From Candidatus Woesearchaeota archaeon (GTDB lineage Archaea > Nanobdellota > Nanobdellia > Woesearchaeales > JAFGLG01): a stretch of 64,000 bases of DNA. This document shows positions 4,477 through 42,611 of this stretch, piece after piece. The translations under genes and the position numbers were made by a program. Positions within the stretch are counted from its first letter, which is position 1; each line of letters starts with the position of its first letter. The DNA is taken from NCBI GenBank assembly GCA_016928155.1, contig JAFGLG010000005.1:62001-126000 (forward strand). Reading direction: 5' to 3'. Below the pieces are notes generated by a model. The model worked only from the letters and a program-made list of their open reading frames with translations. It had not been told where the DNA came from and ran no database searches.

Positions 4477-6318
4477 TCAGTGACTGATCCCCTCGACGAC
4501 ATGAATAGCGCTGCATCTGGCAAGTGCGCTGTTATGCGCATCAATGTAATTCTTGATCAGGACTTTCCAGTCTGCAAGGCCGCTGAGATTCTTGGCTATC
4601 AGCTTCTGCTCAACCCTCTCAGCGCGATTGAAATTCGTGTACTTGTACATGATGTCGGCGAACTGGCTGACCTGCTCCTCTTCAGACCTATCCCTCCTCC
4701 TGAGGACATAGATGCCGCCCTGCTGCTTGGCATTCTTGTTCATGAACATGCCGAAACCGGCAAGATCAGATGTTATCGACGGGACACCCAATGCAGCAGA
4801 TTCCAGGGGGGTGTAACCCCAAGGCTCATAATATGAAGGGAATATGCCAAGATGACAACCCACGATAGCCTCATAATATGACAGATCGATCAGACCGTCA
4901 GCACCAGTAAGATAAACGGGATAATAGACAACCTTCACACGGTCATCTTCCTTGTTGTCAAGACCTGTCTCATTGAAGCTCCTAATGATTATATCATCAT
5001 GCTCATTAGGGATGTCATGCGTGCAGAGAACCGGGTTGCCTTTCTGCATGAATTCAAGTCGGAGCTTCTTGACGTTGTTCAGGAAATCCCTGTCAAACAA
5101 GTCGATAGTCAGGTTCTTGTTAGAGACTATGTTCATCTCAAGCCTCTCACCGATTACATACTTATTCTTATCAATAAACGAGTGGATCCTCCTGTAGCCC
5201 TGCTTGTTGGTTATGATCTGCTGCTTCACATTCCTGACATCTCTCGGTATCCAGAAGAATGCAACAACAGTCTTCTTGGACTGTTCGGCCTTCAGCCTCT
5301 CATTCAGCACCTTCAAGGCCTTGATCATTATGTCAATCCCCTTGTTCTTGAACTCATACCTGCCTACAATGAAGAAATTCAAGGTCTCATCGATGTCAAA
5401 GGAATAATGGGCCATGAAATAGTATGTCAAGAACTCCCTGATCTGATCACGATTATCCTGATGCTTTATGGAAATCTCCTCAAAGGTCGGGAACTTGCCT
5501 ATGTCGAGACCGTTCAGGACAAGTATCTCGGGCTTCCTGCCAAGAATCTTCTCAGCCTCGATGCCAGTTATCTCAGAGACTGTGGTGAATATCACAGCTG
5601 CATTGGCAGCAGCGCGTTCTGTAGTGAACTTGTCCTGTATGCCATGATGGTAGGCTTCAGCAGCCGGATCAATATACTCGAGCTCAGAATAGAGATTCCT
5701 GCCAGAGCCAGCGATGGAACGGCCCAGCATCGTCGCATGCGTGGTGAAGACTGTCGCGACCCGCGCATTATTGGCTTTCAGATACAGGATCGCAAAACCG
5801 GCAAGCCACTCATGGCAGTGGGCGCAGATATCTTTGTTCGGGTTGAACCTCTGGAACTTCTCCAGCAGTTTGCCTACTGCTGTCGCCCAGATCATAGGCT
5901 CGTCAAAAGACCATTGGGAATAGAGGGAATCCACTTGGTAAGAATCCCAGTACATCTTCTTGAATTCATCCCTCCTCCCGACCAATCCGCTTGAATCAAT
6001 GAGGATCACTTGAGGGTTGCCCTTGACATTCCATGTGCCGAAATGGCACCTTATCCCTTCTGACTCAAGCTCCTTGAATACCGAAGCCAACGTTTCAGGA
6101 GGATTCTGCTCCTCAAGCTCGAACTTGGCCTTATCTTCAAAATAGGGCCCAACAAGGAAATACTTATCTGAATAATTCTGGACCATCAATGCGGCTTTTG
6201 ATTTGACAACTGTGTAGATGCCGCCTACTTTGTTGCAGACCTCCCAAGAGGCTTCAAACAAGAAATCTGCGGATGGAGTCTGATCCAGAGTGACACCCTG
6301 ATTTTTTTGGTCTTCCAT
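4477..6318 (-). CDS. Glycogen synthase, GT3 (eukaryote-type) family
   Basis: A 613-residue glycosyltransferase of family GT3. The N-terminal signature WEVCNKVGGIYTVVKSKA lies at about 25-42, and the C-terminal catalytic segment SYYEPWGYTPLESAALGVPS at about 495. Length and motifs match eukaryotic GYS-type UDP-glucose:glycogen synthase rather than the bacterial GT5 GlgA. The regulatory arginine cluster of eukaryotic enzymes is partly echoed (RRRDR about 540), but allostery is not shown. The ATG at 6318 is preceded by AGAGG. It heads an operon with galT and is divergent from the GT4-GH57 operon. It extends alpha-1,4-glucan chains in the cytoplasm. Confidence 0.9.
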   Translation of the reverse strand: MEDQKNQGVTLDQTPSADFLFEASWEVCNKVGGIYTVVKSKAALMVQNYSDKYFLVGPYFEDKAKFELEEQNPPETLASVFKELESEGIRCHFGTWNVKGNPQVILIDSSGLVGRRDEFKKMYWDSYQVDSLYSQWSFDEPMIWATAVGKLLEKFQRFNPNKDICAHCHEWLAGFAILYLKANNARVATVFTTHATMLGRSIAGSGRNLYSELEYIDPAAEAYHHGIQDKFTTERAAANAAVIFTTVSEITGIEAEKILGRKPEILVLNGLDIGKFPTFEEISIKHQDNRDQIREFLTYYFMAHYSFDIDETLNFFIVGRYEFKNKGIDIMIKALKVLNERLKAEQSKKTVVAFFWIPRDVRNVKQQIITNKQGYRRIHSFIDKNKYVIGERLEMNIVSNKNLTIDLFDRDFLNNVKKLRLEFMQKGNPVLCTHDIPNEHDDIIIRSFNETGLDNKEDDRVKVVYYPVYLTGADGLIDLSYYEAIVGCHLGIFPSYYEPWGYTPLESAALGVPSITSDLAGFGMFMNKNAKQQGGIYVLRRRDRSEEEQVSQFADIMYKYTNFNRAERVEQKLIAKNLSGLADWKVLIKNYIDAHNSALARCSAIHVVEGISH

Positions 6319-6655
6319 CAAATATCCTCTTTTTAGGCTAAGTTTTTAAATTTGATATTATTTGATATGAATAGGATATTTAAAAATTTTTGGTAAACAA
6401 CATATGAGTAAGCAGTTTGGCCACTAGGGGGTACTACTTTTAAGTTTACACGAAGTTTTAAATGTTATTTCGGATTTTTTGTTTATAAATTAGCTGCATA
6501 AAAGATTTAATCAGGTAAGATGGAAAATTATTCCATCCAGATGTAAGTGAAAAAAGGGGACTGATCCAAATACAGAACCCAAAAAAGGGCAATAATAGAT
6601 TTAGTACAATAACATATAATCATAAACATCTTCTATCAGGAAGAGGTGGGATTAA
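6319..6655. promoter_or_regulatory. Divergent intergenic region between glycogen operons
   Basis: This 337-base AT-rich spacer holds no gene. On the minus strand, TTTAAA-rich TATA-like boxes at about 6340-6350 and 6378-6390 can drive the GT3 gene. On the plus strand, TTTATAAAT near 6482 and ACATATAATC at 6612-6621 are candidates for the GT4 operon; the latter would give a short leader containing the AAGAGGTGGG ribosome site at 6641-6650. The two operons could be co-regulated from here. Confidence 0.5.
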
Positions 6656-7873
6656 GTGAGGAAAGTTCTTATGTTCGGCTGGGAGTTCCCACCATATTAT
6701 TCCGGCGGATTAGGGACAGCCTGCTTCGGACTGACCAAGAGCATGAGCAAGCTCGGAGCACAGATAACATTTGTCATCCCGCACGCACCAGATGATATCC
6801 ATTCAGACCATGTCAAGCTTGTCGGGGCAAGCAATTCAAAGATCAGGATAAAGACAGTCAGCAGCATACTGACACCCTACATCTCAGAGAATGAATACAA
6901 TACAAAATACCTTCAGCACACAAAGGGCGGAACAGGCGGCAATTACGGGCGCAACCTGTATGAAGAGGTCAGGAGGTATGCAATGAAAGCCCGCATGATA
7001 GCTGAAGAAGAGGATTTTGAGATAATCCATGCGCACGACTGGCTGACAGCAGTCGCAGGAGTGGAAGCCAAAAAAGCATCAGGAAAACCCCTGGTCCTGC
7101 ACATCCACGCGACAGAGTTCGACAGGACAGGAGGCAACCCGAACCAGTATGTGTATGACATCGAGAGATATGGGATGCATAACGCAGACAGGATCATCGC
7201 AGTAAGCAATTTCACCAAGGAGAAGATAGTGAACCATTACGGAGTGCCAGCAGACAAGGTGGAAGTGGTCCACAATGCAGTGGAGTTTAGCGATAAAAAA
7301 TTTAACAAGGGGTCGTTCGGCATCAACAAGGAAGATAAGGTAGTTCTCTTTCTGGGAAGGATCACAATCCAAAAGGGACCTGATTATTTCCTTTATGCAG
7401 CCAAAAAGGTGCTGGAGTCAGACCCCCATGTTAAATTTGTGATGGCAGGGAACGGGGACATGCAGCCATTCATCATCGAGAAGGCAGCAGAGCTCGGCAT
7501 CGCAGACAGGCTATTGTTCACTGGCTTCCTGCGCGGACCAGACATAGACAGGGCATATGCAATGGCAGACCTCTATGTGATGCCATCAGTGTCAGAGCCT
7601 TTTGGCATAACACCGCTCGAGGCGCTCCGCAACAATACGCCGGTGCTCATATCAAAGCAGAGCGGAGTATCAGAAGTGCTCCAGAATTGCCTTAAGGTCG
7701 ATTTCTGGGATGTCCATGACATGGCCAACAAGATAATAGCCACGCTCAAGTACCGACCCCTGCATGAAGAGCTGACTTCAAATGGAGTCGAAGAGGTCTA
7801 CAGGTTCTCATGGGACAACCCTGCCCGGAAATGCCTCAATGTATATGAGGATGTGCTAAGAGGGGTGATGTGA
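6656..7873 (+). CDS. GT4-family glycosyltransferase of the glycogen operon
   Basis: A 405-residue GT-B glycosyltransferase. The N-terminal GWEFPPYYSGGLGTACFGL resembles starch-synthase-like glycine loops, HAHDW lies near residue 125, and the C-terminal GT4 motif EPFGITPLEAL at about 314 holds the two conserved glutamates. The GTG start at 6656 is supported by AGAGGTGGG upstream. The stop overlaps the next gene (TGATG), so expression is coupled to the GH57 enzyme. It likely transfers glucose from a nucleotide sugar to an alpha-glucan or makes a primer; the exact acceptor is unknown. Confidence 0.85.
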   Translation: MRKVLMFGWEFPPYYSGGLGTACFGLTKSMSKLGAQITFVIPHAPDDIHSDHVKLVGASNSKIRIKTVSSILTPYISENEYNTKYLQHTKGGTGGNYGRNLYEEVRRYAMKARMIAEEEDFEIIHAHDWLTAVAGVEAKKASGKPLVLHIHATEFDRTGGNPNQYVYDIERYGMHNADRIIAVSNFTKEKIVNHYGVPADKVEVVHNAVEFSDKKFNKGSFGINKEDKVVLFLGRITIQKGPDYFLYAAKKVLESDPHVKFVMAGNGDMQPFIIEKAAELGIADRLLFTGFLRGPDIDRAYAMADLYVMPSVSEPFGITPLEALRNNTPVLISKQSGVSEVLQNCLKVDFWDVHDMANKIIATLKYRPLHEELTSNGVEEVYRFSWDNPARKCLNVYEDVLRGVM

Positions 7874-9102
7874 TGGTCAATCTATGCATGTACTTCCAGG
7901 TGCACCAGCCATATCGCCTCGGGAAATACCAAGTATTCGACATCGGAGAGAAGCATGAGTATTTCGACGACAAGAAAAACAGGGAGATAATGCGCAAAGT
8001 CTCAGAGAAGTGCTACCTGCCGACAAATGCTGCGCTGCTTGACCTTATCAAAAAGCACGGCGGGAAATTCAAGGTGAGCTTCAGCATATCAGGAGTGGCA
8101 CTTGAGCAGTTCGAGAAATACGCGCCAGAGGTCCTGGAGAGCTTCAAAGAGCTGGCAAAGACAGGATGCGTCGAGTTCCTCGGCGAGACATATTACCACT
8201 CATTGTCATTCCTCTACTCAAAAGACGAGTTCAAGAAGCAGATAATAAAGCACAGGCATAAGATAATGACACTGTTCGGACAGAGACCTGCAGTATTCAG
8301 GAACACAGAGCTCATCTACAACAATGAGCTAGCGATGTTCATCGAAGAGATGGGATACAAGGCCATACTGGCAGAAGGAGCAGACCACATACTTGAATGG
8401 AGAAGCCCCAACTTTGTCTATAAACCAAGACACTGCAAGGACATAAGGCTCCTGATGAAGAACTATAAACTGTCGGATGACATAGCATTCCGGTTCAGCA
8501 ACAGGGGATGGAAAGAATGGCCGCTCACAGTGGACAAGTATTCCAGATGGATAAATGCAGTGAACGGCAACGGAGAGGTCATAAACCTGTTCATGGATTA
8601 TGAGACATTCGGGGAACACCAATGGGAGGATACTGGCATATTCGAATTCCTGAAAGTGCTTCCAGGAGAGATACTCCGGCACCCTGACAATGGATTCGTG
8701 ACAGTGAGCGAAGCAGCCAAGCAGACTGTAAGAGGGGACATGGACATACATTCGGTAGTGAGCTGGGCAGACCTGGAAAGGGACCTCAGCGCCTGGGTTG
8801 GGAACATGATGCAGCACAGCGCACTGAATGAGATATATGCAATTGAAGGGCAGGTATTGTCTTCGGGAGATGAGAAGCTGATCGATGACTGGAGGAAGCT
8901 GCAGACCTCAGACCATTTCTATTACATGTGCACCAAATATTTCTCAGACGGAGATGTGCACAAATACTTCAATCCATACGACAGCCCGTATGACTGCTTC
9001 ATAGCATACATGAATGTGCTCAATGACATAAAATTAAGATTGAAACTGGGCCAGAAGGAAAAAGGCGCAGTCTGCACAGAGGCAACAATCGCAGAGGGGT
9101 GA
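7873..9102 (+). CDS. Glycoside hydrolase family 57 alpha-glucan enzyme
   Basis: A 409-residue GH57 (beta/alpha)7-barrel enzyme. The HQP motif is at 11-13, the nucleophile Glu in RNTELIYNN at about 146, and the acid/base Asp in MDYETFGEHQW at about 242. No signal peptide is seen, so it is intracellular. GH57 members hydrolyse or rearrange alpha-1,4/1,6-glucans (amylase, 4-alpha-glucanotransferase, branching enzyme); its short length favours alpha-amylase-like or debranching activity. The ATG at 7873 overlaps the GT4 stop; a GTG at 7870 is less likely. It works with the GT4 and GT3 enzymes. Confidence 0.9.
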   Translation: MVNLCMYFQVHQPYRLGKYQVFDIGEKHEYFDDKKNREIMRKVSEKCYLPTNAALLDLIKKHGGKFKVSFSISGVALEQFEKYAPEVLESFKELAKTGCVEFLGETYYHSLSFLYSKDEFKKQIIKHRHKIMTLFGQRPAVFRNTELIYNNELAMFIEEMGYKAILAEGADHILEWRSPNFVYKPRHCKDIRLLMKNYKLSDDIAFRFSNRGWKEWPLTVDKYSRWINAVNGNGEVINLFMDYETFGEHQWEDTGIFEFLKVLPGEILRHPDNGFVTVSEAAKQTVRGDMDIHSVVSWADLERDLSAWVGNMMQHSALNEIYAIEGQVLSSGDEKLIDDWRKLQTSDHFYYMCTKYFSDGDVHKYFNPYDSPYDCFIAYMNVLNDIKLRLKLGQKEKGAVCTEATIAEG

Positions 9103-9107
9103 AAAAG

Positions 9108-9503
9108 ATGCAAGCATTAGTCAAAAGCGTCTATAAAGGCAAGAAACCGACAGCAGAGAGGCTTGTCGAGGAAGCCAGGAAGACAAGGACTGCAAATGAA
9201 CCTAAGATGAGGATCACAGTCAAGAAAAAGATGTTCGGCAAAGCACCGGAAGAGCACACATTCTACCTCAAAGGAGGAGACCAGGTAAGGTCGATCATGC
9301 AACTGGTCGACAAGCTTGAGGGCATGGCAGAAGAGGAATTCAGCCATCATGTAACAGGCTCCAACAATGATTTTGCAAACTGGGTGGAGCATGTCTTTGA
9401 CGAGAAACAGCTTGCAGCAGAACTGAGAGACGCAAAGACAAGGATGGAACATCAGATCAGGATCATGAACCACATGCTGAAAGAGCTAGGGGTAAAGGGG
9501 TGA
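9108..9503 (+). CDS. DUF5752-like small protein (first copy)
   Basis: A 131-residue soluble protein. An N-terminal basic segment is followed by a domain starting FYLKGGDQVRSIMQLVDKL and containing HHVTGSNNDFANWVEHVF. The pattern (helical DELxxAL, then HHVN-x5-NDFxxWV) is the one I know as DUF5752. The ATG at 9108 follows AGAGGGG; a GTG at 9099 would overlap the GH57 stop. It is a member of the GT4-GH57 operon, with a sister gene 4 bases downstream. A scaffold, regulator or glucan-sensing role is inference only. The same domain recurs at the C-terminus of the CheW protein at 39824-40642. Confidence 0.75.
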   Translation: MQALVKSVYKGKKPTAERLVEEARKTRTANEPKMRITVKKKMFGKAPEEHTFYLKGGDQVRSIMQLVDKLEGMAEEEFSHHVTGSNNDFANWVEHVFDEKQLAAELRDAKTRMEHQIRIMNHMLKELGVKG

Positions 9504-9507
9504 AACA

Positions 9508-9933
9508 ATGAAACTACAACCAGAAGATGCCGAATCGCTGCTTGTGCAGGCCAAACAAGAACATCATTTCAAGCTGCACATGGGAGCAGACATCGGCTCA
9601 CTTAAGGAATTGGCAGACGCGCTCGAGATAATGAACGACACAAGCTTCGGACACCATGTGAACCAGCACAAGAATGACTTCGCTGTATGGGTGGAAGAAG
9701 TCATCGGGGACAAGGAGCTTGCTTCAGAGATCAAGCATGTCAAGGAAAGGGCGAAGATGCTCAAGAAGGTCCAGAAAAGGATCATCTATCTTGAAAGCAA
9801 GAAAGAAGAAGGCATGCCGATCCATACACGCGAGAGCATGTGGATAGGATCAAGGGATTTCCTCGTCGGAATGGTGCTCGGCTTCGTGATAGGGTACATA
9901 ATCAGGAACATAGTGTGGCTTTACGGGATCTGA
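9508..9933 (+). CDS. DUF5752-like membrane-anchored protein (second copy)
   Basis: A 141-residue protein. A DUF5752-like domain occupies about 18-75 (HHVNQHKNDFAVWVEEVIGD), followed by a coiled basic helix and a single C-terminal transmembrane helix (about 115-135). It is a paralogue of the gene just upstream, but tail-anchored to the membrane. A strong AAGGGGTGA ribosome site precedes the ATG at 9508. Placement with glycogen enzymes suggests tethering or localisation of polysaccharide metabolism at the membrane, which is not demonstrated. Confidence 0.75.
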   Translation: MKLQPEDAESLLVQAKQEHHFKLHMGADIGSLKELADALEIMNDTSFGHHVNQHKNDFAVWVEEVIGDKELASEIKHVKERAKMLKKVQKRIIYLESKKEEGMPIHTRESMWIGSRDFLVGMVLGFVIGYIIRNIVWLYGI

Positions 9934-36183: not shown

Positions 36184-36855
36184 ATGGCACAGATAAATGG
36201 TGTTAAGCACATAATCTTTGACTGGGACGGCGTGATCGCTGACTCATTCGAGCACCAGCACAAGTTCTTCAAGGCAGCATGCAAGAAATTCGGAAAAACA
36301 TACAATATCAAGACAATCGACGAGCTCAGGGAATATTACAAAGAACCATTCAGACTCATGTATGAGGATTGGGGATTTGACCTTGACAACAAGGAAGAGC
36401 TTGATGCGCTCACTGGATATTTCAGGAAGTTCAATGACAGCAACCATGTAAAACTGTTCCCGAATATGCCAAGCATACTGAAGGAACTGCATGAAAAAGG
36501 GTTCAGCCTGAACATCGTCTCATCCAACAGGGAGTTCGTGGTCCATAAATGGATGAAAGAGCATCATGTCGACAAATATTTCACGCATGTCATAACATAT
36601 GACAGGAGAACAGCCCATAGGGAGAAGCCGGCACCTGACCTCATATTGCTGTGCATCGAAAAGCTTGGAGCAAGAAAAGAGGAATGTGCCTATATCGGCG
36701 ACCAAAGGTTTGATATCCAGGCAGCCAGGCATGCCGGCATAAGGAGCATAGCTGTGACATGGGGCTATGGACATGTGACAAAGCTCATCGCAGAGAATCC
36801 AGACCACACAGTCAACAAGCCAGAAGAGCTGCTGGAATTATTCATGCATCCATAG
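36184..36855 (+). CDS. HAD-superfamily phosphatase
   Basis: A 223-residue HAD hydrolase in canonical order: motif I DWDGVIADS (about 13-21), cap domain, motif II VSSNR (about 117), motif III Lys in HREKPAPD, motif IV YIGDQRFDIQAA. It resembles phosphoglycolate phosphatase/beta-phosphoglucomutase types. The substrate is probably a small phosphate ester. It begins 32 bases after the upstream gene, with TCTTTAAATA before it. Confidence 0.88.
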   Translation: MAQINGVKHIIFDWDGVIADSFEHQHKFFKAACKKFGKTYNIKTIDELREYYKEPFRLMYEDWGFDLDNKEELDALTGYFRKFNDSNHVKLFPNMPSILKELHEKGFSLNIVSSNREFVVHKWMKEHHVDKYFTHVITYDRRTAHREKPAPDLILLCIEKLGARKEECAYIGDQRFDIQAARHAGIRSIAVTWGYGHVTKLIAENPDHTVNKPEELLELFMHP

Positions 36856-37453
36856 AATCAATCTTCTTCTTCAGGCCCTCAGTGTCCTTGAGAATCAGAA
36901 GACCCTTGATGTCCCCCTCATAGAAGGATCTCTTTGTCCTGAAATTCACCTGGAACAGCATGAGATCCTTGGGGGTGATGCCAGAGACCTCCTTGATGAA
37001 ATGCTCGACGCTGGGCGCTTTTGATATGACAATCTTCACAGGATGATGCTTGATCCCCATCTTAAGGAAGGAATTCAATGAATCCAGATATGCCATAGTC
37101 GATACCTCCGATAGCTGGACAAGCTCTTCCTCATCCTTTGGAGTCAGATAATCGATATGGGAGTCCTTGGAGATGATCCCCGAGATCATCAAAGCGCTTT
37201 TGAAAGGGAAGAGAAGCATGAAGAAGCCATTAAAACCATTATCATAGACAGCAGTATAGCTTATCACCACTTCCTCCTCTGCAAATATGATATCCCTTAT
37301 CTCATCAAATGTCTGGAACCTAGCAAATATCACATCAAGATCTATTGGGTCGCTGATTGTCCTCTCCTTGAAATAGGCAGAGAGAGCTGTTGCCAGATTG
37401 CCGGCGCCTACATTCACCACCTCTGACAGTGGATCACGGTATCTCTTGTCCAT
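36842..37453 (-). CDS. cheC: CheC-like CheY phosphatase
   Basis: A 203-residue CheC/CheX-fold protein. The first active motif SEVVNVGAGNLATALS (Glu and Asn about 11-15) is intact. The second repeat reads SEVSTMAYLDSLNS, where the conserved Asn is replaced, so only one phosphatase site seems functional. It would dephosphorylate CheY. Start 37453 is chosen for MDKRYRDPL with GAGGTG upstream. It is last in the chemosensory operon, and overlaps the convergent HAD gene by 14 bases. Confidence 0.8.
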   Translation of the reverse strand: MDKRYRDPLSEVVNVGAGNLATALSAYFKERTISDPIDLDVIFARFQTFDEIRDIIFAEEEVVISYTAVYDNGFNGFFMLLFPFKSALMISGIISKDSHIDYLTPKDEEELVQLSEVSTMAYLDSLNSFLKMGIKHHPVKIVISKAPSVEHFIKEVSGITPKDLMLFQVNFRTKRSFYEGDIKGLLILKDTEGLKKKIDSMDA

Positions 37454-37526
37454 CCTAATCCAACACCTCAACCCATCCTCACATAAACCACATCCCATCA
37501 ACAATGCAACATCAACCGCATTATGC

Positions 37527-39452
37527 CTAAAACAGGGACATGACATCCAGTATCATGCATATCCTCCCATCACCAAGTATTGTCGCACCGGCAATCCCCT
37601 TCACATCCTTCAGGACCCTGCCCATGCTCTTGATGAGGATCTCCTGCTCATTGAATATCGAATCAGCCAATAAGGCCACAGGCCTCTCATCCTTCTCCAC
37701 AATAACAGCAATATGACGACCTGGACCAGGGCCGCCTCTGATGCCGAAAAAATCATCAAGCCTGAGAACAGGGACCTGACGTTTGTTATGGATAATAACT
37801 TCCTGCATCTGGATAGACCTGATGGCGCCCTGTTCTATATGGAATGTTTTCTGTACATTCGTCAATGGTATGGCAAAGACGTGATCCCTGACATTGACAA
37901 GCAGCGCTTTTATTATAGCAAGAGTCAATGGAATATGCAGCCTTATAGATGTGCCTTCACCAGGCTTTGAAGCCAGTTTCACAAAACCTCCATAAGAGCT
38001 GACCTTCGACTGCACAACATCCATGCCTACACCTCTTCCTGATACAGATGTCACTTTCTCTGCAGTCGAGACACCCTGCCTGAACACGAGCCTCTGTGAT
38101 TCCTGAGGGCTCAGCTTTTCAGCCTCCTGCATTGAGATGATGCCCTTCCTGACAGCAGCCTCCCTGACCTTGACAGGATCTATCCCCCTTCCGTCATCAA
38201 TCAGCTCAATGGTTGCAGAATCCCTGCCCCTGCTGGCGATGATCCTGATGGTCCCTGCAGGATTCTTTCCTGCTTTCTGCCTCTCCTCAGCCGATTCGAT
38301 GCCATGATCTATCGCATTCCTCAGCATGTGCATCATCGGATCACCTATCTCCTCAAATACAGTGCGGTCTATCTCAATATCCTCCCCCTCAATGATGAGA
38401 TTCACATTCTTCCCTGCCTGGTTCGCCAGATCACGCACGACCCTTGGCAGTTTTGAGAACATCTGCTTTAGGGGAAGCATCCTCTCATCCATCACCTCAT
38501 CCTGTATCTCACGCACAATCAGGTCAAGACTATTCGCGAGCTCGACAAGCTCCTTATTCCCTGCCCGTTCAGATATCTGCCTCAGCCTTATATTGCTGAT
38601 TATCAGTTCTCCCACAAGATTCAGGAGATGATCGAGCTTCTTGATGTCAATCCTGATGGATCTTGAAGGCCGGGCAAACACCTGCGGAGCCTCTGCCTGA
38701 AGCAGATCAGGATTCATCTCCTCATCCCACCCGATGACAAAGAATTTTGAAGTCTCTGTTATGCCTGACAGGACACTGCTGATCGAGTCTTCATGACCGG
38801 CAGTCACCGCTATTATCAGCTCGAAGAAATTGAAGCTGTCCTCAGCCATACTATCGAATTTCGGGTTGACTGCCAGGACCTCGCCCACCCTTTCCAGGTC
38901 CCTCTTTATTATCATGCTCTTCGCTTTCTTGAAATTGCAGGCCTTCTTGAACAGGATCACGGCCCTAAGGCATCTTAATCCTTCAACCAGCCTCTTCCTT
39001 ATCTGCGCCTTTGCGGGCGCTGCCAGCGGGAATCTCGTCTGCACCTCCTGCTTTTCAGAGACAATATCCTTATCCCCTGAGAGATTCGCCAGCTCCCGGT
39101 CCATCTCATCAGTGGAGAGCTCGTGCTCGCGGTCATCCCTGATCAGGTCGATCCCTGCATCAAGGAGATCCACTGCCCGGAAAAGCGCATCAATGACCTC
39201 TGGCGTGGCCTTCAGCTCCTTTGACCTTATCTTGCCGAGAAGATTCTCAGCAGAATGCGCCAGCGCGGAATACCTCTTGTAAGACAGGGCAGCAGAATTC
39301 CCCTTCAGGGTATGACAGAAACGGAATATCTCATTGATATAATCAAGATTTCCAGGCTCCCTCTCCAGGTTGATGAGCAGGGTGTTTATCTTCGTTATCT
39401 GGTCCTTGGCCTCACTCAGGAATTCATCCTTGTATGCAGCAACCTCCTGCAT
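37527..39452 (-). CDS. cheA: Chemotaxis histidine kinase CheA
   Basis: A 641-residue CheA. The P1 Hpt domain carries phospho-His in FRFCHTLKGNSA (about 47). A reduced P2-like middle region follows, then P3 dimerisation (IDIKKLDHLLNLVGELI), the P4 ATPase with N box HMLRNAIDHGIE and G boxes DDGRGID and GRGVGMDVV, and the P5 CheW-like domain to the end. It phosphorylates CheY in response to receptor signals. ATG 39452 follows GTGAGGTG; the CheY stop lies 8 bases upstream. Confidence 0.94.
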   Translation of the reverse strand: MQEVAAYKDEFLSEAKDQITKINTLLINLEREPGNLDYINEIFRFCHTLKGNSAALSYKRYSALAHSAENLLGKIRSKELKATPEVIDALFRAVDLLDAGIDLIRDDREHELSTDEMDRELANLSGDKDIVSEKQEVQTRFPLAAPAKAQIRKRLVEGLRCLRAVILFKKACNFKKAKSMIIKRDLERVGEVLAVNPKFDSMAEDSFNFFELIIAVTAGHEDSISSVLSGITETSKFFVIGWDEEMNPDLLQAEAPQVFARPSRSIRIDIKKLDHLLNLVGELIISNIRLRQISERAGNKELVELANSLDLIVREIQDEVMDERMLPLKQMFSKLPRVVRDLANQAGKNVNLIIEGEDIEIDRTVFEEIGDPMMHMLRNAIDHGIESAEERQKAGKNPAGTIRIIASRGRDSATIELIDDGRGIDPVKVREAAVRKGIISMQEAEKLSPQESQRLVFRQGVSTAEKVTSVSGRGVGMDVVQSKVSSYGGFVKLASKPGEGTSIRLHIPLTLAIIKALLVNVRDHVFAIPLTNVQKTFHIEQGAIRSIQMQEVIIHNKRQVPVLRLDDFFGIRGGPGPGRHIAVIVEKDERPVALLADSIFNEQEILIKSMGRVLKDVKGIAGATILGDGRICMILDVMSLF

Positions 39453-39460
39453 GCCGCACC

Positions 39461-39823
39461 TCACTTGTCATTTGCGGCGACGATATTCTTTATCTCATCT
39501 GCCCTGAAAGGTTTAGTGATGAAATCCCTCGCCCCAGCCTCTATAGCCTCATTGATTATCTTCTCCTGGCCCACAGAGGTGCACATGACAACAACGGCAT
39601 CCTTCCTTATCTTCATGATCTCCCTCAGGGCCTCAATGCCGTTCTTCTTGGGCATCATGATATCCATGAATACAAGTCCAGGCTCATTATCCCTGAACAT
39701 CTTGACAGCCTCATCACCGTCAGAAGCCTCCAGTATCTCCTTCACGCTTGTCTCCTTCAGGATGTTCTTTATCATGCTCCTCATGAAATTAGAGTCATCC
39801 ACAACCAATACCCTCAATGCCAT
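39461..39823 (-). CDS. cheY: Chemotaxis response regulator CheY
   Basis: A 120-residue single receiver domain: acidic pair Asp9-Asp10, phospho-acceptor Asp54 in VFMDIMMPKK, Thr82 and Lys104 (ITKPF). No output domain. It starts immediately after the CheW gene. In archaea it would signal to an archaellum motor through CheF; neither archaellum genes nor cheF are in this window. Confidence 0.94.
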   Translation of the reverse strand: MALRVLVVDDSNFMRSMIKNILKETSVKEILEASDGDEAVKMFRDNEPGLVFMDIMMPKKNGIEALREIMKIRKDAVVVMCTSVGQEKIINEAIEAGARDFITKPFRADEIKNIVAANDK

Positions 39824-40642
39824 CTAAGCACCTCCTTTGATTATCCTGTCCAGAACCTTCACCATATCATCCCTGCCCTGTACCTTCCTGATGCTCTCGA
39901 CTACCCTGCCATGATCCTTGATGCCTGAAAACTCATGCTCAATCCAGTTGGCGAAATCATTCTTCTCCTGGTTGAGGTATCTCCTGAAATCTTCGTCAGT
40001 TATCTGGAGCAGGTGCTTCCTCAGATGGACAAGATTCTTTATCCTCATACCATCCAGCCAGAAAGGATTCTCAGGGATGTGGAATTTTGCCAGCCCCTCA
40101 GGTCTTTCTCCCTCTGCATCCCCCTGCTTCTTCACCGGCACAGGAGCCTTGTCCTGCACCTCCTTGCCGAGCTCCAGGTCCTTGACCATCTGCATAAGAT
40201 CCACGAGTATTATCATCCTGTCCTCTGCAATGCTTACGCCTTCAAGGTATTTCACATTAATCCTCTTTGCTATGACCGGCGGAGGAGGCGCTACAGACGA
40301 CTCGTCTATCTGGACAATCTCCTCGACAGCATCCACCATTATGCCGACGATCTCATTCGGCTCAACCTCAACTATGAGTATCCTCGATTTCTCCCCTTCA
40401 TCAGGGAAATTGAAGACTCTCGCAAGATCGATGACAGGACATATTGTGCCCTTAAGATTCATTATCCCGGAGACATAGCTCTTGACATTAGGCACCCTTG
40501 TCAGGCCTGAGCTCTGGACAACCTCCTTCAGGTCGCTGATATCCGCTCCGAACTCCTCATCCAGTATCCTGAATACCAGAACTTTCCTGAACCTGACCTC
40601 AGGTATCTCATCCTCAATATCCTTCAGATAGGACTGCACCAT
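39824..40642 (-). CDS. cheW: CheW adaptor fused to a DUF5752-like domain
   Basis: A 272-residue protein. A CheW SH3-like adaptor (about 15-155; RFRKVLVFRILDEEFGADI, SGIMNLKGTICPVIDLA) is joined by a Lys/Glu/Pro linker to a C-terminal domain (about 190-270) containing RYLNQEKNDFANWIEHEF. This tail matches the two DUF5752-like proteins of the glycogen operon (HHVTGSNNDFANWVEHVF). CheW normally ends near residue 150-160, so the fusion is unusual. It links receptors to CheA, and the tail may bring in another input or partner. Confidence 0.88.
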   Translation of the reverse strand: MVQSYLKDIEDEIPEVRFRKVLVFRILDEEFGADISDLKEVVQSSGLTRVPNVKSYVSGIMNLKGTICPVIDLARVFNFPDEGEKSRILIVEVEPNEIVGIMVDAVEEIVQIDESSVAPPPPVIAKRINVKYLEGVSIAEDRMIILVDLMQMVKDLELGKEVQDKAPVPVKKQGDAEGERPEGLAKFHIPENPFWLDGMRIKNLVHLRKHLLQITDEDFRRYLNQEKNDFANWIEHEFSGIKDHGRVVESIRKVQGRDDMVKVLDRIIKGGA

Positions 40643-40643
40643 T

Positions 40644-41942
40644 TTACAGATTTATCCTGAACCTATTTGTCATATCCTTGAGCTCATTGATGGCCTTCGC
40701 CAGCTCCTGCGCAGACTTCGCCACCTCCCTTATCTCAGAAGCCTGCTCCTCTGCTGAAGCTGAGACCTCCTCAGTCGAGCCCGCGCTGTCCTCGGAAATC
40801 TTGGCGATCTTGTCCACTGAGACCTCGATGCTCTTGATGGCATCCACCTGCTTCTCGATTGCGCTTGAGATATCCTTAACCTCATGGGAGGCATCCTGCA
40901 CCATAGAAGAAATAGATTCCAGCAATGTAAGTGTGTTTCGGACGCCCTCAGCACCCTTCTCGACTTCCTTTGAACTGACATTCATGCTGTTGACCGCATC
41001 ATCAGCGCTGCCCTGGACCTCAGAGATCAGGCTGTTTATCTGGCCAGTGGCTCTGCTCGACTCCTCAGCGAGCTTCCTTATCTGGTCAGCGACGACAGCA
41101 AATCCCTTGCCGGCCTCCCCTGCCCTCGCTGCCTCAATCGCAGCATTCAATGAAAGCAGATTGGTCTGCTCTGCGATCTTATTTATGAGATCTATGATCC
41201 TGCCAATCTTCTGGGTCTTGTCATTCAGGCCCCCGATGACCTCAGAGCTGTTCCTCACAGCAGAGATGATATCATTCATCCTCGTCACAGAATCCTTGGC
41301 TGTGATGGCACCTGACCTCGCTGTCTCATTTGCCTTGGTAGAGGATGACACCGCAATCCTCGCAGAATCAGTCACAGCAGAAGACAATGCCGCTATGTTC
41401 CTCACGAACTGGGATGTCTCAGCAATCCTGTTGCTCTGCACCTCAGCACCCTCTGCAATGAAATGAATGGCCTTGAGGATGTCATCGGTGTTCTTGTTGA
41501 CCTGTTCGCTGGATTTCGTGAGCTTGACAGAGTTCTCAGAGACAAGCCTGGAGCTGGAATGGATCTGCTTTACAAGCTCCTTGAGATTCTCTACCATGAT
41601 ATTGAAGGAAAATGCAACATCAGTTATCATGTTGTACTTATCTATGATTATGCTCTCGCTCAGCTCGAAAGTCAAGTCGCCCTTCGCTACACGGCTCATA
41701 TCCTTCACAAGATCCTTGAGCTGCTTATCGATTATGTTGGACAAGTAGATGGCGATAGCTATACCCACTATTATCCCTATGAAGATGTCAAGAGTCAGGA
41801 GGACCCATGTATCAGTTGTCAGGTCACTGAGCCTTGTGATGTTCGAGATGACAAAAATGTAAGCCAATGTCATGAAGAATATGATGAGCAGAACACCGGC
41901 AACCAATGTCTGCTTCAGTCCTTTCAGCCTAATAATTGCCAT
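40644..41942 (-). CDS. Methyl-accepting chemotaxis protein (membrane, no sensor domain)
   Basis: A 432-residue receptor. Two transmembrane helices (about 12-32 and 45-66) are separated by only about a dozen residues, so there is no extracellular sensor domain. HAMP follows (about 67-120), then the coiled coil with the conserved hairpin tip [20 protein letters not shown] then [19 protein letters not shown]. It would sense membrane, redox or cytoplasmic cues or act through partners. First gene of the operon; TATA CTTTATATAAT at about 42013-42023 gives a leader of about 45 bases. Confidence 0.93.
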
Positions 41943-42099: not shown

Positions 42100-42357
42100 T
42101 CATTCAAGCATATCACGCAGCTTCTGCTTCCATTTATCAAGAAGATTGGGCTCATTTGTGACAGCATGCCTTATTATCTCCTTGTCATCGGCTTTCTCAT
42201 CATAGTAATGCTGCATTGTGCGCAGAAAAAGGTCTATCTCATTCACTGCACCATAGACCTGGTGCTGTTCAGCAGCATCCATCGTATCCCTCTGCTTCTC
42301 AAGCAGGTCAACAAGATTCGATCTCCTCTTCTCAAAAATCCTAATTAGTTCTTTCAT
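42100..42357 (-). CDS. Small helical protein paired with RHH regulator
   Basis: An 85-residue charged, all-helical protein (KELIRIFEKRRSNLVDLLEKQR to YYDEKADDKE) without known motifs. It overlaps the RHH gene by 17 bases and so is co-translated. The gene pair could be a toxin-antitoxin-like or regulator-effector unit, but no catalytic residues are recognisable. Confidence 0.6.
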   Translation of the reverse strand: MKELIRIFEKRRSNLVDLLEKQRDTMDAAEQHQVYGAVNEIDLFLRTMQHYYDEKADDKEIIRHAVTNEPNLLDKWKQKLRDMLE

Positions 42358-42523
42358 GAAGGGTCACATCATGATCCTGATCCTTTGTCCTGTAATTATC
42401 TATGAGCTCGATTATTATGGAATTATAGCTGTCATTCTTAGAAACAAAATCAAGCCTGTCCAGCATCTCTTTTGTCTGGCGCTTGATACGTATTGAAGTA
42501 TCAGTCAAGTCAGTGACTATCAT
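42341..42523 (-). CDS. Ribbon-helix-helix DNA-binding protein
   Basis: A 60-residue protein starting MIVTDLTDTSIRIKRQTKEM, a beta strand followed by two helices (SYNSIIIELIDNY), typical of RHH repressors. A TTG-initiated longer form from 42601 is possible. A palindrome between the TATA box and this start (42612-42626) is a likely operator. Confidence 0.7.
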   Translation of the reverse strand: MIVTDLTDTSIRIKRQTKEMLDRLDFVSKNDSYNSIIIELIDNYRTKDQDHDVTLHERTN

Positions 42524-42611
42524 CTCTTTCTCAATATTAACCACCCCCAGCCCAAAAACACCTCTTTTCCGCAGATAATAGAGTGAGTGCTCAGTATGCA
42601 ATCACTATGGG

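Follow-up and report, generated by a model that had tools for sequence, protein, structure and literature searches.

An OrfY/DUF5752-like tail on the CheW adaptor of a woesearchaeal chemosensory cluster is shared with two small proteins of a glycogen locus

The window analyzed in this work, a 64,000-nucleotide stretch of a Candidatus Woesearchaeota contig, contains a tight cluster of chemosensory genes on the minus strand, in the order MCP, CheW-tail, CheY, CheA, and CheC-like. These genes and the parts of the CheW-tail ORF are as follows.

40644..41942 (-): MCP with two transmembrane (TM) helices and a loop of ~15 residues between them (PF00015, 2.5e-44; loop read from the sequence)
39824-40642 (-): CheW-tail ORF, 272 aa
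40178..40582 (-): CheW domain, residues 21-155 (Pfam PF01584, 1.5e-30)
40076..40177 (-): linker from CheW to tail domain, residues 156-189, ~35 residues, no family match
39842..40075 (-): tail domain, half-DUF5752/OrfY-like, residues 190-267, ~75 aa (external profile, 1.6e-18)
39461..39823 (-): CheY, directly after the CheW stop codon (PF00072, 9.2e-30)
37527..39464 (-): CheA with Hpt, P2, dimerization, ATPase, and CheW-like domains (Pfam)
36842..37546 (-): CheC-like protein, assigned by reading and by its position in the cluster (no Pfam match at 0.001)

The genome is small and 99.7% complete and contains one MCP, one CheA, and one CheW gene besides the CheW copy inside CheA. As the fused CheW is the sole CheW gene, it is the only adaptor found for this chemosensory system. 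The MCP has no external sensor domain, since its two TM helices are separated by ~15 residues, and input from elsewhere is therefore plausible. Searches of the genome with family models revealed, at that sensitivity, no match for archaellin, CheR, or CheF, and four matches to T2SSE-family ATPases. The chemosensory system of this organism is thus a stripped-down one. Upstream of the MCP gene, an ORF at 42341-42601 (-) reads like a ribbon-helix-helix regulator and has no Pfam match at 0.001.

The CheW domain of the fusion scores 106 bits against a Pfam cut-off of 23.5, and its nearest relative of solved structure is 2qdl (1.6e-28). With a full CheW domain above cut-off in an MCP-CheW-CheY-CheA cluster, the protein resembles classical CheW, but it differs by its OrfY-like tail, a folded domain absent from classical CheW. 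The length of the linker is strongly variable between CheW-tail fusions, and linker residues 159-182 have pLDDT values of <50 in the model of the full chain, in which the tail reaches ~90 and the CheW part is poor, the alignment being short of CheW relatives. The AlphaFold model of the tail, with a pLDDT of 92.5, consists of a beta hairpin and five helices. These predictions indicate that the tail is a real, separately folding domain behind a low-confidence linker. CheW and the DUF5752/OrfY domain are already known; what is new here is a CheW with a tail of this type.

A preliminary description of the locus had proposed that the tail shares an uncharacterized domain with two proteins of polysaccharide metabolism, one of them membrane-anchored, encoded in a glycogen operon of the same window. 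The features of that operon are as follows.

4477..6321 (-): glycogen synthase (PF05693, 1.4e-159)
6656..7873 (+): GT4 glycosyltransferase of the glycogen cluster (PF00534, 2.5e-34)
7870..9102 (+): GH57 enzyme of the glycogen cluster (PF03065, 1.1e-79)
9246..9482 (+): second domain copy, in the soluble protein P0002, ORF 9099-9503 (external profile, 3.9e-26)
9556..9786 (+): third domain copy, in P0003, ORF 9508-9933 (external profile, 4.3e-29; PF19027, 29.3 bits)
9859..9915 (+): C-terminal TM helix of P0003 (hydropathy of 2.07 over 19 residues)

The residues quoted in that description, RYLNQEKNDFANWIEHEF, are present identically in the CheW tail. In Smith-Waterman alignments, the tail scored 101 with P0002 (Z 14.6) and 86 with P0003 (Z 10.9), and none of 2,000 shuffles reached either score. 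An external profile was made of 136 domain copies from other genomes, excluding the copies of the host genome itself; one misaligned CheA fragment was omitted from the final alignment. This profile matched only 3 of the 736 ORFs of the window, namely, P0003 (4.3e-29), P0002 (3.9e-26), and CheW (1.6e-18). The profile thus unites all three proteins, and the domain common to them is not a chance motif match between unrelated domains. The membrane anchor proposed for one of the two operon proteins was likewise recovered, as the C-terminal helix of P0003. In contrast, both P0002 and P0003 are small domain-only proteins and not enzymes, so that the label of polysaccharide metabolism had to be dropped for the proteins themselves.

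All three proteins had been expected to belong to DUF5752 (PF19027), for which the Pfam gathering cut-off is 23 bits. This was the case for P0003, at 29.3 bits, but P0002 (19.4 bits) and the CheW tail (11.2-15.1 bits) remained below the cut-off and were joined to the family by a single-unit profile instead. The CheW tail of a related fusion (L024) passes it with 25.2 bits. The Pfam model, of 208 positions, covers two copies of the domain: a tandem protein (L044) fills positions 22-187 without a break, and single copies fill one half or the other. Single copies score poorly because the model spans two of them, and in the organism's own genome P0003 was its sole match. As the Pfam model was too insensitive, the single-unit profile was built from an alignment of 57 rows (A2). 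A fold of the tandem protein was discarded, because single copies aligned to its first half only.

A search of the PDB with the single-unit profile returned one significant protein, OrfY of Thermoproteus tenax (4cso; E 2.8e-8), which was matched in two stretches. The same entry was the best Foldseek match of the tail model (probability, 0.96; TM score, 0.59 over the query; E 0.13). Judged by sequence profile and by modeled fold, the CheW tail is one half of DUF5752 and of OrfY, and since OrfY has a solved structure, the domain is not wholly uncharacterized. The likeness extends to a single unit: OrfY, the DUF5752 model, and proteins L044, L009, L011, and L130 have two copies per chain, whereas the CheW-tail ORF has one, behind CheW and below the Pfam cut-off. 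The most conserved residues of the domain (F, G, N-D-F, and W) are located in the model at the hairpin and at the start of a helix, where they look structural.

The depositors of 4cso name the entry "OrfY protein, transcription factor." Our literature search returned nothing on DUF5752 and no paper describing T. tenax OrfY, and a paper on the T. tenax trehalose operon makes no mention of OrfY; the depositors' label thus stays putative. If the domain bound DNA or RNA, as this label suggests, the CheW tail would keep the fold and perhaps the activity, and a fusion with the condensin subunit ScpA, described below, would fit. However, such binding makes little sense on CheW, a GH57 enzyme, an E2 enzyme, or an ABC permease, and the lack of an OrfY paper in the search also counts against it; we give this explanation hardly any credence.

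Among the 13 CheW-bearing genomes of the order, 4 (G000, G022, G256, and G329), from four different families, carry the tail on CheW; L024 and the G329 match are the same fusion protein. In the remaining nine, CheW has no tail or a low-complexity one; CheW function in general therefore does not depend on the tail. A fifth candidate fusion, in G498, was rejected, its tail being charged low-complexity sequence with no domain. The fusion gene adjoins an MCP gene in three of the four families; it comes after CheR and MCP genes in L024 and L104, and that of G022 stands alone beside translation genes. In a tree of the tails, three of the four CheW tails form a clade (SH-aLRT 95) and that of the window is unplaced, the trees being weakly resolved. 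As the window tail was not grouped with the other three, a single origin of all CheW tails and a common CheW-specific role are both only possibilities.

A His present in 91% of the family is replaced by Tyr or Phe in all four CheW tails, versus 9 of 146 other copies (Fisher, 3.5e-5). The real weight of this value is much lower, since the calculation assumes independence of related copies and one clade comprises three of the four tails. The tail might also be the product of a chance fusion, retained without a function of its own, as the tailless CheW proteins of most genomes and the weak resolution of the trees would allow. Nevertheless, the conserved core (F, G, N-D-F, and W) is kept in four families and the His is swapped in every CheW tail, making such a history very unlikely in our opinion.

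The single-unit profile detected four domain copies in the organism's own genome, and a search with the tail alone likewise gave P0002, P0003, and the fourth. The latter lies in an 1180-aa protein (L140 3150-6692 [-], contig C8), the only carrier of the genome outside the window, in which a secreted repeat region is followed by one TM helix, a cytosolic domain copy, and a short further C-terminal segment. In the order, a model of CheW plus the domain matched 219 of 353 genomes at 1e-10, almost always via the domain part alone, and the named relatives are mostly Candidatus Woesearchaeota. In a draw across the phylum, 167 of 371 genomes had a domain match at 1e-6, with a maximum of 14 copies per genome. 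It is also present in Aenigmatarchaeota and, rarely, in bins labeled Paceibacterota, Chloroflexi, Bacteroidetes, and Methanosarcinales, for which mis-binning is possible. No relative was found in viral contigs with the one query searched.

The domain is joined to a variety of partners. Fusions confirmed with Pfam comprise a KaiC-type ATPase with two domain copies (L009), ScpA with a C-terminal domain above the DUF5752 cut-off (L018 703-1731 [+]), a 2-oxoacid dehydrogenase E2 with the domain between its lipoyl and E3-binding domains (L013 511-2046 [-]), an ABC-2 permease (L014), and CheW (L024 and L074). The domain also occurs alone and on several long proteins that read as coiled coils. Thus, the list of partners includes the CheW and glycogen loci of the preliminary description, but the KaiC, ScpA, E2, and ABC-2 fusions contradict a restriction to those two. 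As far as sequence matches tell, the domain is a widely reused module, specific neither to glycogen nor to chemotaxis.

Homologues of the GT4, GH57, and glycogen synthase genes of the window adjoin the domain in 22 of 47 loci from named genomes, usually in the order GT4, GH57, one or two domain genes, and glycogen synthase. Pairs of domain genes consist of a soluble member and a member that often has a membrane helix at its end; a TM helix follows the domain in 27 of 87 glycogen-locus copies versus 2 of 60 elsewhere, with some glycogen genes hidden by short flanks. The domain is fused to GH57 in three Aenigmatarchaeota loci (L045, L069, and L070, with Pfam run on L045). The adjacency of these genes, together with the MCP devoid of its own sensor domain, would fit a sensor of a small ligand (perhaps a glucan or sugar nucleotide) that informs the array, via CheW, of the carbon status. 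The structural appearance of the most conserved residues speaks against this, as do the ScpA and ABC-2 permease partners, which have no evident link with glycogen. We therefore regard ligand sensing as quite improbable.

The partners of the domain, i.e., CheW, GH57, KaiC, ScpA, E2, the ABC-2 permease, and the coiled coils, share nothing enzymatic, which is what an interaction module would be expected to show. Because of these unlike partners, the tandem copies, and the neighboring genes for soluble and membrane-anchored copies, the best explanation is that the tail, at the end of a flexible linker, acts in protein docking, perhaps by pairing with further copies, and would tether the CheW array to a partner; we assign it a probability of about 0.45. 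What we infer is the docking itself, the pairing of copies, and any passage of a signal via the tail. The presence of two copies in one chain is consistent with copies packing together; however, duplication can also yield tandem and neighboring copies that do not pair. The transcription factor label of OrfY and the absence of the tail from most CheW proteins of the order count against docking.

With a docking tail, the CheW part would build into the CheA/MCP array in the usual way, and the tail would hold a partner or anchor, the simplest candidate being a second domain-bearing protein. Candidates of this kind in the genome are the soluble P0002, the membrane-anchored P0003, and the 1180-aa surface protein with its cytosolic copy. 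At glycogen loci, a soluble copy or a GH57 fusion might meet the membrane copy and so tether glycogen enzymes; by analogy, the CheW tail may locate the array to an assembly at the membrane or surface, or connect it with one. Coupling to carbon stores, a special case of docking, is possible. The 1180-aa surface protein is just as good a candidate and, speculatively, might provide the MCP, which lacks a sensor, with a path for external signals. Of the two suggestions made in the preliminary description, localization or docking is better supported than coupling to carbon status.

A tethering role does not require copies to bind one another. The domain might dock glycogen enzymes, CheW, and others onto one shared hub other than a domain copy, such as a polarity or membrane-organizing protein, which would agree with the great variety of partners and with the up to 14 copies per genome. 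There is precedent in Vibrio, where ParP becomes part of the array core and links it to ParC, the polar anchor (PMC5706961). ParP is comparable to the fused CheW only in the way it works, as a CheW-like protein that places an array; it has ParC as its anchor at the pole (PMC5706961), and no kinship of the tail with ParP is claimed. For the hub, no gene has been identified, and the regular pair of soluble and TM genes points instead to pairing of copies, so that we regard a common hub as rather unlikely.

With these data, an anonymous DUF with one solved relative becomes a recognizable, reusable DPANN module with a concrete list of partners, and there is a suggestion of how a stripped-down chemosensory system with a single sensorless MCP might be wired or placed. 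In its broadest form, a family of self-pairing docking domains would organize glycogen synthesis, chemosensory arrays, condensin, 2-oxoacid dehydrogenase, and KaiC-type ATPases at DPANN membranes; the only adaptor of the array would plug into it, and, via CheW, a surface or storage protein with the domain would supply the sensorless receptor with input. We consider this whole scheme unlikely. For pairing, the four copies in the genome leave only ten pairwise combinations, self-pairs included.

Some of the long carriers have features of their own. The coiled-coil proteins L058, L063, L087, and L095 share a C-terminal motif like LYYDI.[DE]LKTDI.LA.L and are perhaps structural. In very large carriers of 1155-1379 aa (L025 1502-5638, L038 1-3852, and L046 2827-6291), the domain is located near the C terminus, and the L025 protein additionally contains HerA-type ATPase and carboxypeptidase-regulatory-like domains.
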